Positions 9,423 through 20,213 of a DNA stretch of 20,213 bases are shown piece by piece. The notes beneath the pieces are model-generated. The model was not told the origin of the DNA and ran no database searches. It saw nothing but the letters and a program-made list of their open reading frames with translations. The stretch is from a virus. The position numbers and the translations under genes are program-made. Location: the IMG/VR virus record IMGVR_UViG_3300046001_005441, positions 1 to 20,213 of that record; one strand, 5' to 3'. How positions within the stretch are numbered: the stretch's first letter is position 1; the number at the start of each line of letters is the position of its first letter.

Positions 9423-9570
9423 TATTATTAATAATATTGATAGGTTACCGATTTACCTATCGGCAGATGCAATCATTACAAGCGATGACTTCTCAAGGGA
9501 AGTTTATAAAATGTATTGTGATGGAAAAACAGAGGATGAAATCATAAAATATATAAACAAAAATAAATGA
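9388..9570 (+). CDS. Small hypothetical protein coupled to glutamine synthetase
   Basis: This 60-residue protein (MGFNKRILKK at the start, KTEDEIIKYINKNK at the end) is coupled to glutamine synthetase by an ATGA overlap at 9567-9570. It overlaps the preceding small frame by 35 nt. A 7-bp inverted repeat, GATAGGT/ACCTATC with a 9-nt loop at about 9439-9461, lies inside it and could form a hairpin some 100 nt before the synthetase start. I recognise no domain. Confidence 0.6.
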   Translation: MGFNKRILKKDNIINNIDRLPIYLSADAIITSDDFSREVYKMYCDGKTEDEIIKYINKNK

Positions 9571-10856
9571 AAATCAAATTAGAATACGTTTGGTTGGATG
9601 GATATACGCCAGAACCAAACTTAAGAAGTAAAGTAAAAATTGTAGAATACAATGATATTAAAAATGCGTTTTTGGATGGTAAATTTCCTGAATGGAACTT
9701 TGACGGGTCATCAACAAAACAAGCAGAAACAGGTAGTTCAGATTGTATTTTAAAACCTGTTAAACACTACATAACGGATGGGTTACTAAATACGATTTAT
9801 ATCCTTTGTGAAGTTATGAACCCAGATGGTACACCACACAAATCAAATTACCGTTCACAATTAGGTGATGAACAAGAAGATTTGTGGTTTGGATTTGAAC
9901 AAGAATACTTTATTCAAAAAGGGATCGGTGAAGGAGTTTTAGGTCACGACAGAAAGTATTTGGACCCACAAGGTAAGTATTACTGTGGTGTAGGACAAAA
10001 CGTTGTTGGAAGGGACTTTGTTGAAAGACATACTAATATGTGTTTAAATTATGGGATTGATATTACTGGAACAAATGCTGAGGTTGCGCTTGGACAATGG
10101 GAGTATCAGGTTTTTTCAAAAGGTAAACTAAATGCTGGAGATGACCTATGGATGTCACGATACTTCCTATACAAACTTTCTGAAGAATATGGTTACGCAA
10201 TTACAATCCACCCAAAACCACTACAATATGGAGAATGGAACGGTTCAGGACTTCATACAAACTTCTCAAATGATTATATGAGAAATGTTGGTGGAGAAGA
10301 GTATTTTAAATCATTATTTGCAAGTTTTAACGCAAGACATACTGAACATATTAAACATTATGGTTCACATAATGAATTAAGATTGACAGGTAATTTTGAA
10401 ACACAATCAATTGATAAATTTAGTTGGGGGGTTTCAGATAGAGGAGCATCAATTAGAGTACCACAACAAACAGCAAAAGATTGGAAAGGTTATGTTGAAG
10501 ATAGAAGACCTGGTTCAAACGCGGACCCATATAAAATTATCTACCAAATTGAAAAGTCAATTAATAATGCTGAAACAATTGGTGATATTAAACATATGAT
10601 GAATTTTAAAATTGATATTGATAAATTGGATGGTAAGTATGAAGGGATTTTAAGTAATGATGAATTACTTAAAGAATATAAAAACGATGAGGACTATGAA
10701 CTTGATGTTGAAACAATGGAAGGGTCTAATATACCAACAGAAGACATTAACTTCAATCCACAACTACAATCAGAATTAATATCAGAATTAAGAAATAAAT
10801 TGCAAAATAGCAAAATACCTAAAGCTCTTAAAAACGCAATGTTATATGGAAAATAA
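9567..10856 (+). CDS. glnA: Glutamine synthetase, type II-like (beta-grasp + catalytic), with C-terminal extension
   Basis: The enzyme should join glutamate and ammonia to make glutamine using ATP. All the hallmarks of the eukaryotic-like type II family are in order. They are WNFDGSST (latch), FEQEY with E111 and E113, NAEV then GQWE (E172, E179), and NGSGLH (N225-H230). They continue with HNELRLTG (268-275), SIRVP (R297) and EDRRP (311-315). Everything needed for catalysis appears present, so I expect an active enzyme. The family is usually about 340-370 residues; this one has 429, with an acidic extension of roughly 85 residues after the catalytic domain. It is translationally coupled to the small gene upstream. 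A phage copy is an auxiliary metabolic gene that could raise glutamine supply or relieve nitrogen limitation during infection. Confidence 0.95.
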   Translation: MKIKLEYVWLDGYTPEPNLRSKVKIVEYNDIKNAFLDGKFPEWNFDGSSTKQAETGSSDCILKPVKHYITDGLLNTIYILCEVMNPDGTPHKSNYRSQLGDEQEDLWFGFEQEYFIQKGIGEGVLGHDRKYLDPQGKYYCGVGQNVVGRDFVERHTNMCLNYGIDITGTNAEVALGQWEYQVFSKGKLNAGDDLWMSRYFLYKLSEEYGYAITIHPKPLQYGEWNGSGLHTNFSNDYMRNVGGEEYFKSLFASFNARHTEHIKHYGSHNELRLTGNFETQSIDKFSWGVSDRGASIRVPQQTAKDWKGYVEDRRPGSNADPYKIIYQIEKSINNAETIGDIKHMMNFKIDIDKLDGKYEGILSNDELLKEYKNDEDYELDVETMEGSNIPTEDINFNPQLQSELISELRNKLQNSKIPKALKNAMLYGK

Positions 10857-13145: not shown

Positions 13146-13754
13146 ATGAAAAAAAATGTTATTAAAAATGTCAACTTAATACTTGAAGAAAGATATTTAA
13201 AACAAAAATCAATTATTATTGAAAGTTTAGAACCACCTAAAAGTGAAGACGAATATATATCAATAATTAAAAATAATGGATTCACACAAGTAAGTTCAAA
13301 GGACCCGAACACTGTTTGGAAATATGAAAATAGTAAAACACAAGTTTTTACATATAAAACAAAAGACGGTAAATTATATGTAAGTCAAAGAGGGTTTTAT
13401 AACCCAAAAACTGATTTACATATTCCCACAACTACTACATCTTTTAAAATACCTGTAACTACTGAATATCAAAAATATTGGGATAGGGCCGTTAATGACT
13501 ACATACAAAGTAAAAACATTTATGACCCGTCTTGGTCATTAGAAAATATTAATGACCAAATAAAAAAAATTGAAGATAATCTTAAAATAACTAACGATAA
13601 GGATATTGTTACAGTTGGTGGGGTTTTTATCAGAAATATTAAATCAGTTGAAGAAAATATTAATAAATGGTTGATTGATCCTGATAAACAGATGGCAAAA
13701 AATAACCTAAACCAGTTAAAGGGATTGGCAAAAGAAAAAGGATTATCCGTATGA
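13146..13754 (+). CDS. Tagged hypothetical protein upstream of the DHH-SET gene
   Basis: This 202-residue protein starts MKKNVIKNVNLILEE, an amphipathic tag with I-L-E/L-E-E. A second candidate I/L-x-E site follows in SIIIES near residue 27. The rest has a beta-rich middle (VWKYENSKTQVFTYK, KLYVSQRG) and a helical C-terminus, and I do not recognise it. Its TGA overlaps the ATG of the DHH-SET gene (ATGA at 13751), so the two proteins are coupled and may be packaged or act together. Confidence 0.78.
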   Translation: MKKNVIKNVNLILEERYLKQKSIIIESLEPPKSEDEYISIIKNNGFTQVSSKDPNTVWKYENSKTQVFTYKTKDGKLYVSQRGFYNPKTDLHIPTTTTSFKIPVTTEYQKYWDRAVNDYIQSKNIYDPSWSLENINDQIKKIEDNLKITNDKDIVTVGGVFIRNIKSVEENINKWLIDPDKQMAKNNLNQLKGLAKEKGLSV

Positions 13755-15985
13755 AATATATAATTAAAGAATCAGGAATTAGAGATATAAATCAAATAAA
13801 AAAAAGATATCCTAAAGCTAAAATTTACTTTCACCAAGATTTAGATGGAGTAACAACAGCCCTTGGTATGAAACATTATTTAGAGCAAAACGGGATTAAA
13901 GTTGTTGATGCTGAGACTATACAATACGGAGATAAAGAATTTGCAATTAAAAAAACGGATGCTGGTGGTGATATTATGCCTGTACTTGTGGATTTTGCTC
14001 ACGGGAAACCAATGTTTGTAATACATACAGACCATCACGATAGTCAGGCTGGGGTTGAACCTGGCACCGCAACTAATTTTAGACCGTCAAGATCTAACGT
14101 TGAAACAATATCACAAGTAGTTTCACCAAAAGAAATTTTTCCTTTTGATGATATTACTTTAATATCAACTGTGGACTCAGCCAATTTCTTGGCCCATAAT
14201 ATTACACAGGAAATGGTAATGAACTATTTGTTTAAATTTGATAAGGATAATAGTTTAAAATCTAACAAAATGTTAATGGGACTTGTCACTAATAAGTTAT
14301 TGTTGGCACTTAAAAATAAACCAAGATTTTTAGAAAATATTGTATTAGAAGCAAAACCATCTCTTTTAAGTATTTTAAATAATATAAGAGATCAGGTAAA
14401 AAAATATGGTTATGCTAGCGAAGTTGAAATGGTTAAAAACCAAGAAGAGTATGTTGAACGAATGAAAACAAGTGAGAATGTTAAATTTGTTGGACCAATA
14501 ATAGTACAATATGGTGGGGGTAATATGAGAAACCCTGGATCTTATGATAGATACACTCCTTTTAGAAATAATCCAGATAAAGACTTCATAGTACTTGCTT
14601 GGGGAATGGGGTTAGTGCAGGCATCTTGTAATCCATTTAAAGGGGATAGGGCATTAAAGGGGGTTGATTTAGGTGAAATGAAAAATGAAGTACTTAGTAA
14701 GTTTGAACCACTATTAAAAGGAATGACTATTACGTTTGGTACTTTAAAAAGAGTTTCAGAAATAAAGGCAGAACAAGATTCTGTTGGTTTTACATATAAA
14801 GATTTAATTGCAATATATGGGAATCGCCCATCATTTAAAGTACAAGGCGGGGAAAAAACTGTAGACATTATAAAAAACATATCAGAAACCCTTTATAAAA
14901 GACTATCAACTAAACAAAAAGAGATGTTGGATAGGATAAGTGTAAATGGTTGGGACGTTGTAATGGCAAACTCAGGAGGACATAAATGTATTACAAACAT
15001 ATCAGGACTTAGTTACTTATTCAGGGATTCTAAAAAAGACGAAACATCAACGTACGACAACCCAAAACTACAAGCAATATCTGATTATACGGGTAATAAT
15101 ACATTTGTGAACGATATAAAAGGTAAATTAAAGAAATATAACTTTTTAACTGATCCTCAAATTAATGCGGCTATTAGACAAATTGAAAAAGAAGGTGGTA
15201 TACAACCAAAAGAGGATGAAAATAAAATATCCAGCTATGTTGATTTAACTAAAGCAATACAAGACGAGTTTGTTAGTGTTTTAAACCAAAAAATACAAGG
15301 ACAAACAAATTTGACCGAATCTAAATCAAACAATAAAAAATATTTTGTTGATGAAAGCAAAATTAAAGGTGCAGGTAAAGGGGTTTTTGCGAAAACAGAT
15401 ATTAAAAAAGGAGAAACGATAGGATTACTTCACACAATAAAAAAGTTAGGATCGGAATACGATTTCACAGAACTTGGAAAAATGCATAACCATAACGATA
15501 AACCAACGTGTCATAATAAAAAAGTTGGAAATAAAAGATATTTGGTGGCATCAAAAAATCTTAAAAAGGGCGATGAATTAACAACAGATTATACATTACA
15601 GCCAGATCTTGAACAACCACAAAAAAATTGGGGGACAATTAAAGAAAATAAAGAAATGAGACCTGAAATTGATGGGTATAGAACATATTCACCATTTAAA
15701 AATTTAGAATATATAATTGTTAACGGTGATGGTATTGATTGTAATAATATAGTATACGATTTAGTCTTAATTGGTAACAATGGTAAAGTAAAATTCTGTA
15801 AAAAGAATTCTGGAACTTATTTTTTAAAGGGTGCAACAAAAATTGTTGAAATACCATTTAAAAATAACGAAAAATATTCTGACGTTTTTAAATCAAGCGA
15901 AACGTTTAATGAATGGTTAAAAGAAAAAATTAAAGAAATTGATGTTAAAAAAGAGATATTGAATGGCTTTTTAATAAAACATTGA
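13751..15985 (+). CDS. DHH-family phosphoesterase fused to a SET domain
   Basis: Residues about 20-430 look like a DHH/DHHA1 phosphoesterase (RecJ/NrnA superfamily): FHQDLDG with D30 and D32, VDFAHG with D81, HTDHHD at 92-97, and GGH at 409-411. Residues about 531-620 look like a SET domain, the fold of protein lysine methyltransferases. It shows GAGKGVFAKTDIKKGE, then NHNDKPT at 580-586 in place of the usual NHSxxPN, then GDELTTDYT at 607-615. A further domain of about 110 residues follows (EIDGYRTYSPFKNLEY onward). The N-terminus MKYIIKES fits the cargo tag. I/L-x-E sequences also occur at LTES before the SET domain and TIKEN after it, which could let a prohead protease split the modules. 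DHH proteins typically cut nucleotides, short RNA or ssDNA; the SET substrate is unknown. I know of no described protein with this architecture. Confidence 0.82.
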   Translation: MKYIIKESGIRDINQIKKRYPKAKIYFHQDLDGVTTALGMKHYLEQNGIKVVDAETIQYGDKEFAIKKTDAGGDIMPVLVDFAHGKPMFVIHTDHHDSQAGVEPGTATNFRPSRSNVETISQVVSPKEIFPFDDITLISTVDSANFLAHNITQEMVMNYLFKFDKDNSLKSNKMLMGLVTNKLLLALKNKPRFLENIVLEAKPSLLSILNNIRDQVKKYGYASEVEMVKNQEEYVERMKTSENVKFVGPIIVQYGGGNMRNPGSYDRYTPFRNNPDKDFIVLAWGMGLVQASCNPFKGDRALKGVDLGEMKNEVLSKFEPLLKGMTITFGTLKRVSEIKAEQDSVGFTYKDLIAIYGNRPSFKVQGGEKTVDIIKNISETLYKRLSTKQKEMLDRISVNGWDVVMANSGGHKCITNISGLSYLFRDSKKDETSTYDNPKLQAISDYTGNNTFVNDIKGKLKKYNFLTDPQINAAIRQIEKEGGIQPKEDENKISSYVDLTKAIQDEFVSVLNQKIQGQTNLTESKSNNKKYFVDESKIKGAGKGVFAKTDIKKGETIGLLHTIKKLGSEYDFTELGKMHNHNDKPTCHNKKVGNKRYLVASKNLKKGDELTTDYTLQPDLEQPQKNWGTIKENKEMRPEIDGYRTYSPFKNLEYIIVNGDGIDCNNIVYDLVLIGNNGKVKFCKKNSGTYFLKGATKIVEIPFKNNEKYSDVFKSSETFNEWLKEKIKEIDVKKEILNGFLIKH

Positions 15986-16005: not shown

Positions 16006-16036
16006 TTGACAAATCAAAATAACTTACTTAAATTTG
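16006..16036 (+). promoter_or_regulatory. Bacteroidota-type promoter P1
   Basis: TTG at 16006-16008 (within TTTGACAAA) and TAAATTTG at 16029-16036 are separated by 20 nt, a full match to TTG-N19/20-TAnnTTTG. It lies in an intergenic region and drives the 51-residue gene at 16098. The surrounding 40 nt are closely similar to promoter P2 at 16271. Confidence 0.8.
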
Positions 16037-16097: not shown

Positions 16098-16253
16098 ATG
16101 TCAGAAGACAATAACACTGTAGAATCTAAAGAACTTGTAATTTACGGTTACAAAAATTCTGAGGGAAAGATGTTTTGGACATCTAACCTTGAATTTGCGA
16201 ACATCCGAGCAAATTACTTCGGTACTTTTGATGTCTACGAAGAAAAAAATTAA
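16098..16253 (+). CDS. Small hypothetical protein (51 aa)
   Basis: ATG at 16098 opens a frame encoding MSEDNNTVESKELVIYGYK, then SEGKMFWTSNLEFAN and an ending FDVYEEKN. Composition is normal for the genome (acidic, aromatic-rich) and a strong host-type promoter with a structured leader lies upstream, so I believe it is real. No family is recognised. The style (a strand, a turn, then an acidic tail) resembles the last gene in the window at 20020. It ends 17 nt before promoter P2. Confidence 0.68.
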   Translation: MSEDNNTVESKELVIYGYKNSEGKMFWTSNLEFANIRANYFGTFDVYEEKN

Positions 16254-16270: not shown

Positions 16271-16301
16271 TTGACAAAACAAAATAAACGTCGTAACTTT
16301 G
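16271..16301 (+). promoter_or_regulatory. Bacteroidota-type promoter P2, driving the large RNA
   Basis: TTG at 16271-16273 (TTGACAAAACAAAATAA) and TAACTTTG at 16294-16301 are separated by 20 nt. It is a near-copy of P1, sharing TTGACAAA-CAAAATAA, the TAAnTTTGTAAAACAA block and the following hairpin. No ATG-initiated gene of convincing composition follows for about 1 kb, which fits a promoter dedicated to a non-coding transcript. Confidence 0.8.
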
Positions 16302-16306
16302 TAAAA

Positions 16307-17295
16307 CAAATCAGGAAAAGACCTGAAACGTTCTTTGAAAAATTAGATTATCCGTTCGGATAAAGTTTCATCAGATTAATTGATGAGTAATTGGAATAGG
16401 AATTCCACCTTTAAACGATAAAGATATTGGGCCGTGTATAGTCCATAAAATAAACTACGAAAGTAGGATAAAGTGAATCGGAAGTGTAACCGATTTGCGG
16501 TTTGGGTAACCGAACTTGAGTACACAAGCGGGATACCGTATAACCTTTAGTACCGAGGTCAACGATGTAGGGAAAGTGGTTAAACGATTGGGCGATGTGG
16601 GTCGTCTGATTGAGGTGGGAACACCAATAGGAATAACCCGTAGGGATATTGCAAAAAATAAGATTATCCGATTTTATTATTGCGTGTTCCAATACGATAG
16701 GATACTTAAAACCGAAAGGTATGATAACAAACGGGTGGTGCCGAAATTATCCTTGATAAACTTCTACCAAGGAGTTAATCACGAAGTAATCTTGAAATAT
16801 GGAGATGGGGACATTTCAAGGAGTAGTTTGGTATTTCGTTGTTCAAAAGATAACGAAGCTGAAAGACGGACCACTACTTCTATCAATCCACGACACAAAA
16901 ACTTTACAGAAATTAAGTAAAACTAAGAACTATAAAGCAAAAGTGTTCGTCAGGTAATAGTGAAAGGTGACTACATAGTAATGAGCTGTTCATTGCATAG
17001 GAAGACCGCAAGTTGACCTATATTCTTACCAAAAACCTCTAACCTCGCAAGGGTCAACTGGGAAGGCATTCTCGGAGAGAGTTGAGTAATGAGAGAGTAA
17101 CTAGTACCTCAAGGAGTGATTCACCTAAATAATCGTCACTGAGAAGTACCATTCAAAAGATGGTGGATACGAAGGGAAACAATAATCCTTCAAAAGATTC
17201 TCACAGAAACGTATAATCTCAGCGTTCTTTTTTAGGTTTAAAATCTTATAAGAAAAAAATTGATGGATGCAGATAATATTTGTATCCATTTTTTT
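16307..17295 (+). ncRNA. Candidate giant structured non-coding RNA (about 0.95 kb)
   Basis: The region is richer in G+C than its neighbours (sampled 60-nt lines 38-50% versus about 20-30%) and is densely folded. Local helices include 16348-53/58-63, 16368-73/81-86, 16392-97/402-407, and 16455-58/63-66 with a GAAA loop. Others are 16476-81/90-95, 16614-17/22-25 with a GGAA loop, 16678-82/90-94, 16711-13/18-20 with a GAAA loop, and 16791-98/813-820 (8 bp). Further ones are 16822-27/873-878 enclosing 16835-40/852-857, 16890-96/943-950, 17011-19/051-059 (9 bp), 17067-73/084-091, 17148-52/160-164 and 17171-75/187-191. It has its own promoter (P2) and a terminator, and no gene covers it. The 134-codon frame inside has no ATG. 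Size, ornateness and phage context resemble GOLLD and ROOL RNAs, but no class is assigned. The exact 3' end may instead be near 17232, where a weaker hairpin and T-run lie. Confidence 0.75.
17263..17295 (+). terminator. Intrinsic terminator of the large RNA
   Basis: ATGGATGCAGAT (17263-17274) pairs fully with ATTTGTATCCAT (17278-17289), with two G-T pairs, across a short AAT loop, and runs directly into seven T's. The T-run overlaps the TTG of the next promoter. Confidence 0.75.
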
Positions 17296-20205: not shown

Positions 20206-20213
20206 TAATATGC

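Follow-up and report, generated by a model that had tools for sequence, protein, structure and literature searches.

A complete GOLLD RNA at 16307-17295

The window analysed here is the whole 20,213-nucleotide stretch of IMG/VR virus record IMGVR_UViG_3300046001_005441, and the element in question is an RNA locus at positions 16307-17295, whose parts, in order, are a host-type promoter, leader hairpin, boxA-like element, structured RNA of ~900 nt in two domains, and intrinsic terminator (Table 1). Covariance-model searches matched 16819-17225 on the plus strand to the GOLLD family (RF02032) over model positions 1-416, the full length of the model, at 321.3 bits (E 1.1e-91) against a curated gathering score of 150 bits. 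The same search found a single copy in the whole virus record and none in 14 control genomes, while ROOL, OLE, HEARO, and the group I and II introns gave no match in the window up to E 10. A preliminary description, made from the letters alone, had proposed a giant phage RNA that was either a member of a class such as GOLLD or ROOL or a new class, and had recommended the Rfam search; on sequence grounds, the locus is a complete GOLLD, a family already known, and not a new class. The association of GOLLD with phage or prophage genes and tRNA islands was also found, since the record is viral and a tRNA island lies at the window edge, as was the separate, less conserved structured 5′ domain of the family. 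We consider it highly probable that the locus as a whole is a full-length GOLLD with a host-type promoter and a boxA leader that would recruit Nus factors, the RNA itself then assembling into a cage, in a phage that probably infects Bacteroidota. Rising expression during phage lysis is a trait of the GOLLD family; for this locus, the preliminary description had suggested possible high expression during infection, and a promoter, a boxA-like leader, and a terminator are present.

The region is G+C-rich, as had been noticed, with 37% in 16307-17295 compared to 29% in the remaining window, and 989-base stretches over it are the richest of the window; the promoter and terminator said to bracket it were both located, and a pattern match picked out this promoter as well as that of the small gene upstream. 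Its plus strand folds better than shuffled sequences (z -3.2, with 0 of 20 shuffles as good). The only long frame, 16516-16920 (134 aa), had been reported to have no ATG, and it opens with TTG. Although this frame is open in the window, in-frame stops are present in all 31 relatives spanning its start, frameshifts are many, and divergence from the window is flat by codon position (0.21/0.23/0.19), indicating that it is non-coding. It has no Pfam or PHROG match and covarying helices run across it, and a protein-coding gene with incidental structure is thus the least credible of the alternatives that we weighed.

Table 1 Coordinates of the GOLLD locus and its upstream gene in the window
Feature	Position	Strand	Remarks
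Small-gene promoter (TTG, ~20 nt, TAAATTTG)	16006..16036	+	Followed by a leader hairpin, no boxA
51-aa protein of a conserved small family	16098..16253	+	Directly upstream of GOLLD
GOLLD promoter, Bacteroidota type	16271..16301	+	TTGAC at 16271, TAACTTTG at 16294-16301; aligned and conserved in relatives
Leader hairpin TCAGG-AAAAGA-CCTGA	16311..16326	+	Immediately before boxA, the boxB position of rrn leaders
boxA-like GTTCTTTGAA	16330..16339	+	Between leader hairpin and RNA
5′ domain of GOLLD, outside the Rfam model	16423..16818	+	97 pairs, 96.8% of cells paired, 71 compensatory
3′ domain of GOLLD	16819..17225	+	RF02032, 321.3 bits; 78 pairs, 97.3% paired, 53 compensatory
Helix 16865-16871/16945-16951 around the variable linker	16865..16951	+	Columns 754-760/847-853 of alignment A1 covary
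Variable A/T-rich linker	16882..16935	+	No tRNA inside; length differs among relatives
Putative J13/15 side of kissing contact with L20	16937..16938	+	Pairs with 17008-17009
Putative L20 side of kissing contact	17008..17009	+	Bridge B7 in the GOLLD cage (PMC12286853)
Loop GGCA with self-complementary GC	17065..17068	+	Candidate symmetric kissing bridge between half-shells
Intrinsic terminator	17262..17295	+	13-bp stem (17262-17290), loop of 3, T-run

Relatives and covariation-supported structure

Blastn matched the locus to the genomes of two uncultured phages (635 and 642 kb) and, over a 3′ stretch only, to Acinetobacter phages; Rfam confirmed GOLLD in LR745206, LR756502, and AM24. Two DNA patterns run on IMG/VR gave ~50 loci with related GOLLDs (numbered with the prefix L below), the pattern GAGTAATNANAGAGTA returning true relatives plus loci that gave no blast match with the GOLLD of the window. 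Searches from divergent GOLLDs returned only the Acinetobacter phages and the two huge phages, with nothing in plasmids, and a Ruegeria locus, the sole result of a GOLLD pattern scan of the genome collection, did not score as GOLLD.

In 41 aligned relatives (A1), 179 pairs were predicted, those of the 5′ half outside the Rfam model among them, and 125 of the 179 showed compensatory changes. Collecting homologs had been recommended in the preliminary description, which also stated that synonymous variation in the 16516-16920 frame with no covarying pairs would speak against a structured RNA; what the relatives display is a broken frame and compensatory change in most of the predicted pairs. When one partner was slid by 1-3 columns, pairing in the two domains fell from the values in Table 1 to 34-42%, and in the 5′ domain the slid controls reached at most 41% paired and at most 31 compensatory pairs, compared to 71 of 97. 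A corrected G-test ranking of 168,377 column pairs placed 42 of the top 50 inside predicted helices. Among the individual stems pointed out earlier, the nested pair 16822-27/16873-78 and 16835-40/16852-57 was confirmed and covaries, whereas the 8-bp (16791-98/16813-20) and 9-bp (17011-19/17051-59) stems are visible as complementarity but lie outside the covariation-supported fold, their bases mostly pairing elsewhere. The helix that encloses the variable linker is pseudoknotted with 16819-16827/16873-16881, and both covary. No tRNA was found within the window.

The Rfam model describes the 3′ domain only, and other GOLLDs matched a profile of the 5′ domain poorly or not at all (E 0.0033 for the 5′ region of the Acinetobacter GOLLD and no match for L232-L234), whereas the 3′ profile matched them, a pattern that would also be expected from a new giant-RNA class that is GOLLD-like in its 3′ half only. 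However, the weak match in AM24 is co-linear and stops just before the AM24 3′ domain, and the 3′ match in the window spans the complete RF02032 model, making such a class very improbable. Taken as GOLLDs with complete 5′ domains, the ~50 related loci provide a covariation-based model for the part that Rfam does not cover.

In the cryo-electron microscopy structure of GOLLD env-38, 14 copies form a hollow RNA cage in which the 5′ domain is the cap, the 3′ domain is the ring, and the linker is disordered (PMC12286853). Among the top column pairs outside predicted helices, 16938-17008 stands out, and the dinucleotides 16937-16938 and 17008-17009 are complementary in 41 of 41 relatives (GC/GC in 23, GG/CC in 15, and TC/GA in 3). 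From their position, and with helix numbering matched to the published description, we take these to be J13/15 and L20, whose contact forms bridge B7 between chains in the cage (PMC12286853). Because this intermolecular bridge is complementary in every aligned relative, assembly of this GOLLD into a cage is likely. The GGCA loop at 17065-17068 may correspond to bridge B8; its GC is kept among relatives of this layout, a minority having a TCGA loop in the neighbouring hairpin. The two L21 hairpins (A1 columns 947-977, window ~17042-17076) occur in two layouts, either a CGCAA loop and then a GGCA loop, or a TCGA loop and then a CGCAA-type loop.

A boxA-like motif in the leader

In all but a few relatives, GTTCTTTGAA lies a few bases past the leader hairpin. 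Its ten columns are each 97-100% identical across 29 relatives in an alignment where identity nearby is as low as 34-80%, and the stem of the preceding hairpin varies with compensation (e.g., CGG/CCG or TTGG/CCAA). The form GTTCTTTGA is found upstream of 42 of 46 GOLLDs, and L037, L166, and L169 carry GTTCTTTAA or GTTCTTTTA in this position. For comparison with host signals, Bacteroidota 16S leaders were taken from plasmid records, and GTTCTTTGA was found 154-166 nt before 16S in Hymenobacter (three leaders) and Rufibacter, the Hymenobacter leaders containing the same GTTCTTTGAA as the window. The corresponding elements are TGCTCTTTAACA at ~-150 of 16S in E. coli and GCTCTTTGACA at ~-238 in Gemmobacter. 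The motif corresponds to boxA, the signal for Nus factors on rRNA operons, and a boxA leader at GOLLD, suggested by this likeness, looks new: the open-access literature, the only literature covered and therefore weak evidence of novelty, yielded no description of GOLLD together with boxA, or of boxA with phage tRNA arrays or tmRNA.

The motif also tracks stable RNA genes. Across 54 GOLLD loci, it follows 36 of the 58 promoters that lead directly to GOLLD, tmRNA, or tRNA, compared to 4 of 114 that lead to an open reading frame (Fisher p 1.6e-17, a value that overstates independence because the loci are related), and two of those four cases, L051 and L098, count as such because a short ATG frame was called ahead of the RNA in a GOLLD leader. 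GTTCTTTGA occurs 72 times in the GOLLD loci against 14 expected, and all four tmRNAs called there by ARAGORN have the motif or GTTCTTTAACA. A promoter-boxA pattern, TTTGT-N3-33-GTTCTTTGA, was run on 14 phage records of 72-642 kb with the reversed pattern as control, giving 25 sites versus 2. These 25 sites lead to GOLLD (10), tRNA arrays within 50 nt (5), tmRNA (4, one called by ARAGORN and three recognised by sequence likeness), a tRNA-GOLLD operon 210 nt on (1), a conserved RNA of unassigned kind (1), and nothing recognised (3); the remaining one, in L261, precedes the small protein gene. The window itself holds an internal contrast, in that the small gene upstream of GOLLD has a similar promoter and leader hairpin (blastn, 74% over 106 columns) with no boxA.

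Several observations weigh against reading the motif as a boxA of GOLLD: besides the L261 site, which precedes no RNA, the motif is absent upstream of GOLLD in LR756502 (the sole case among 46) and does not occur in this form in a Chryseobacterium rrn leader, and nothing boxA-like was found around the GOLLD of Acinetobacter phage AM24. Its absence from LR756502 and AM24 indicates that the boxA leader belongs to this phage lineage, not to GOLLD generally.

The conservation of GTTCTTTGAA might instead reflect a structural part of GOLLD, such as pairing with the conserved TCAAGGA at 17109-17115, and RNAalifold did pair 16332-16338 with this element in one alignment (93% of cells paired). No pair of this helix covaries, however, a second alignment did not recover it, and the partner varies (TTAAGAAG, TTTAGGTG, TCAAAGAG) while GTTCTTTGAA does not. 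The published cage pairs J17/22 with L22 (PMC12286853), and the motif also precedes tmRNA and tRNA genes. The helix was rejected for its lack of covariation, and a structural role in place of boxA is unlikely.

If the motif is boxA, its main role could still be co-transcriptional folding or processing and not protection from Rho. Some authors hold that the main function of Nus factors on rRNA is not antitermination (PMC4807359), an RNA-chaperone role has been proposed for them (PMC10250234), and GOLLD is large and highly folded. On the other side, long transcripts of CRISPR arrays in Legionella were increased ~10-fold by boxA, which fits a role in processivity (PMC7862264), and we treat folding as the main role as a possibility to be taken seriously, though not the one that we favour.

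Several relatives have tandem promoters. A tRNA-Met gene lies close downstream of the RNA in many relatives and upstream in others, which suggests that the RNA ends there would be set by tRNA processing. The tRNA-Met (CAT) directly follows the GOLLD 3′ end in L025, L027, L031, L062, L064, L080, L102, L107, L113, and L114.

A small protein encoded upstream of GOLLD

Members of the 51-aa protein family are encoded at 25 GOLLD loci, in every case on the same strand as the RNA and 160-520 nt ahead of it, and 9 of 12 large relatives have a single copy; LR745206, LR756502, and AM24 have none. Its median dN/dS is 0.33 and third codon positions are the most variable, indicating purifying selection, and it has no credible Pfam or PHROG match. 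In the loci searched, the family occurs only directly upstream of GOLLD. The protein is a candidate GOLLD partner, and the GOLLD-linked family looks new, as far as the open-access literature shows.

Host and genomic neighbourhood

The promoter type (TTG, ~20 nt, TAnnTTTG) points to a Bacteroidota host. At 13751-15985, the window encodes a 744-aa protein that has a SET domain and weakly matches the DHH family. Relatives of this protein in the phage collection were found only in LR745206 and LR756502, the two huge phages, so the window probably represents part of the genome of a related large phage. A glutamine synthetase-like protein (Pfam Gln-synt_C and Gln-synt_N) is encoded at 9567-10856. 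A tRNA-Arg gene begins at the right edge of the window, and the tRNA island that starts at 20212 was read on a near-identical contig, 3300046000_006648, which overlaps the window by 4401 bases with 1 mismatch and continues with 14 tRNAs.

In related loci, phage tmRNA genes lie near GOLLD on the opposite strand (L080 3703-4093, L081 942-1344, L114 6509-6896, L072 13563-13958, and L113 7893-8285). A conserved untranslated stretch of ~290 nt (TTGGTAAGATAGCAGATAGACC...) was observed in L074 (9401-9110, minus strand), L263 (1505-1796), L072 (5315-5569), and L252 (1505-1915); it has a promoter-boxA leader in L074 and L263 and no gathering-level Rfam match, and is a candidate new phage RNA. A conserved RNA-like element (TTGGTTATAGAAACAGTCTAGGTCCGTAGGGC...) lies upstream of GOLLD in L113 (5025-5200), where it has no Rfam match, with similar elements in L080, L076, L102, L150, and L231; it carries a promoter and boxA (or GTTCTTTAA).

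Proposed mechanism

With the motif read as boxA, host RNA polymerase would start at ~16307, and the RNA-level site GUUCUUUGAA would recruit NusB-NusE and other Nus factors as on rRNA operons, allowing the long untranslated transcript to escape Rho and to fold while being made. Whether Nus factors on rRNA chiefly prevent termination or help folding is debated (PMC10250234, PMC4807359), and either role would suit GOLLD. The RNA would then self-assemble into a hollow 14-copy cage like that solved for GOLLD env-38, whose role may lie in the translation programme of the phage, such as the storage or protection of tRNAs or ribosomal particles. This last step is a tentative guess, prompted by the leader type common to tmRNA and tRNA arrays, by the tRNA genes that GOLLD adjoins, and by the ribosome pull-down cited in the cage paper (PMC12286853), and we would not yet bet on it.

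More broadly, we lean slightly towards the view that in large Bacteroidota phages GOLLD, tmRNA, tRNA arrays, and perhaps more form a stable-RNA regulon that works through a borrowed host rRNA antitermination signal, together with a dedicated small GOLLD-linked protein. If so, a cage-forming GOLLD would be made like ribosomal RNA, and the shared leader suggests the same route as for phage tmRNA and tRNAs, tying GOLLD to translation or stable-RNA biogenesis. The GOLLD family and its cage were already known; the leader with boxA and the GOLLD-linked small protein are apparently new, and both are testable leads.

Comparison with known systems

ROOL, OLE, and HEARO are likewise large ornate RNAs of bacteria or phages, and ROOL also forms cages (PMC12286853), but their models had no match here at the threshold given above. 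With the GOLLD of RF02032 and env-38 (PMC12286853), the locus shares the complete 3′ domain, the two domains with a variable linker, the size of ~900 nt, the phage origin, the tRNA neighbourhood, and the J13/15-L20 bridge conserved by covariation. It differs in having no tRNA in the linker, in its boxA-like leader and linked small protein, and in having a promoter and an intrinsic terminator to itself, whereas in many relatives a tRNA-Met gene comes immediately after the RNA. The boxA leaders of CRISPR arrays (PMC7862264) similarly place boxA ahead of a long untranslated RNA, and the Legionella CRISPR boxA, GTTCTTTAAAA, is the variant of relative L037, although that locus is a cellular CRISPR array and not a phage structured RNA. 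Compared to the rRNA operon leader, whose elements are ordered boxB-boxA-boxC (PMC10250234), GOLLD, tmRNA, or tRNA follows in place of rRNA, boxA lies ~28 nt from the promoter versus ~170-200 in rrn, and no boxC was identified here; the two have in common a hairpin and then boxA after a host-type promoter, with a boxA identical to that of Hymenobacter 16S leaders.
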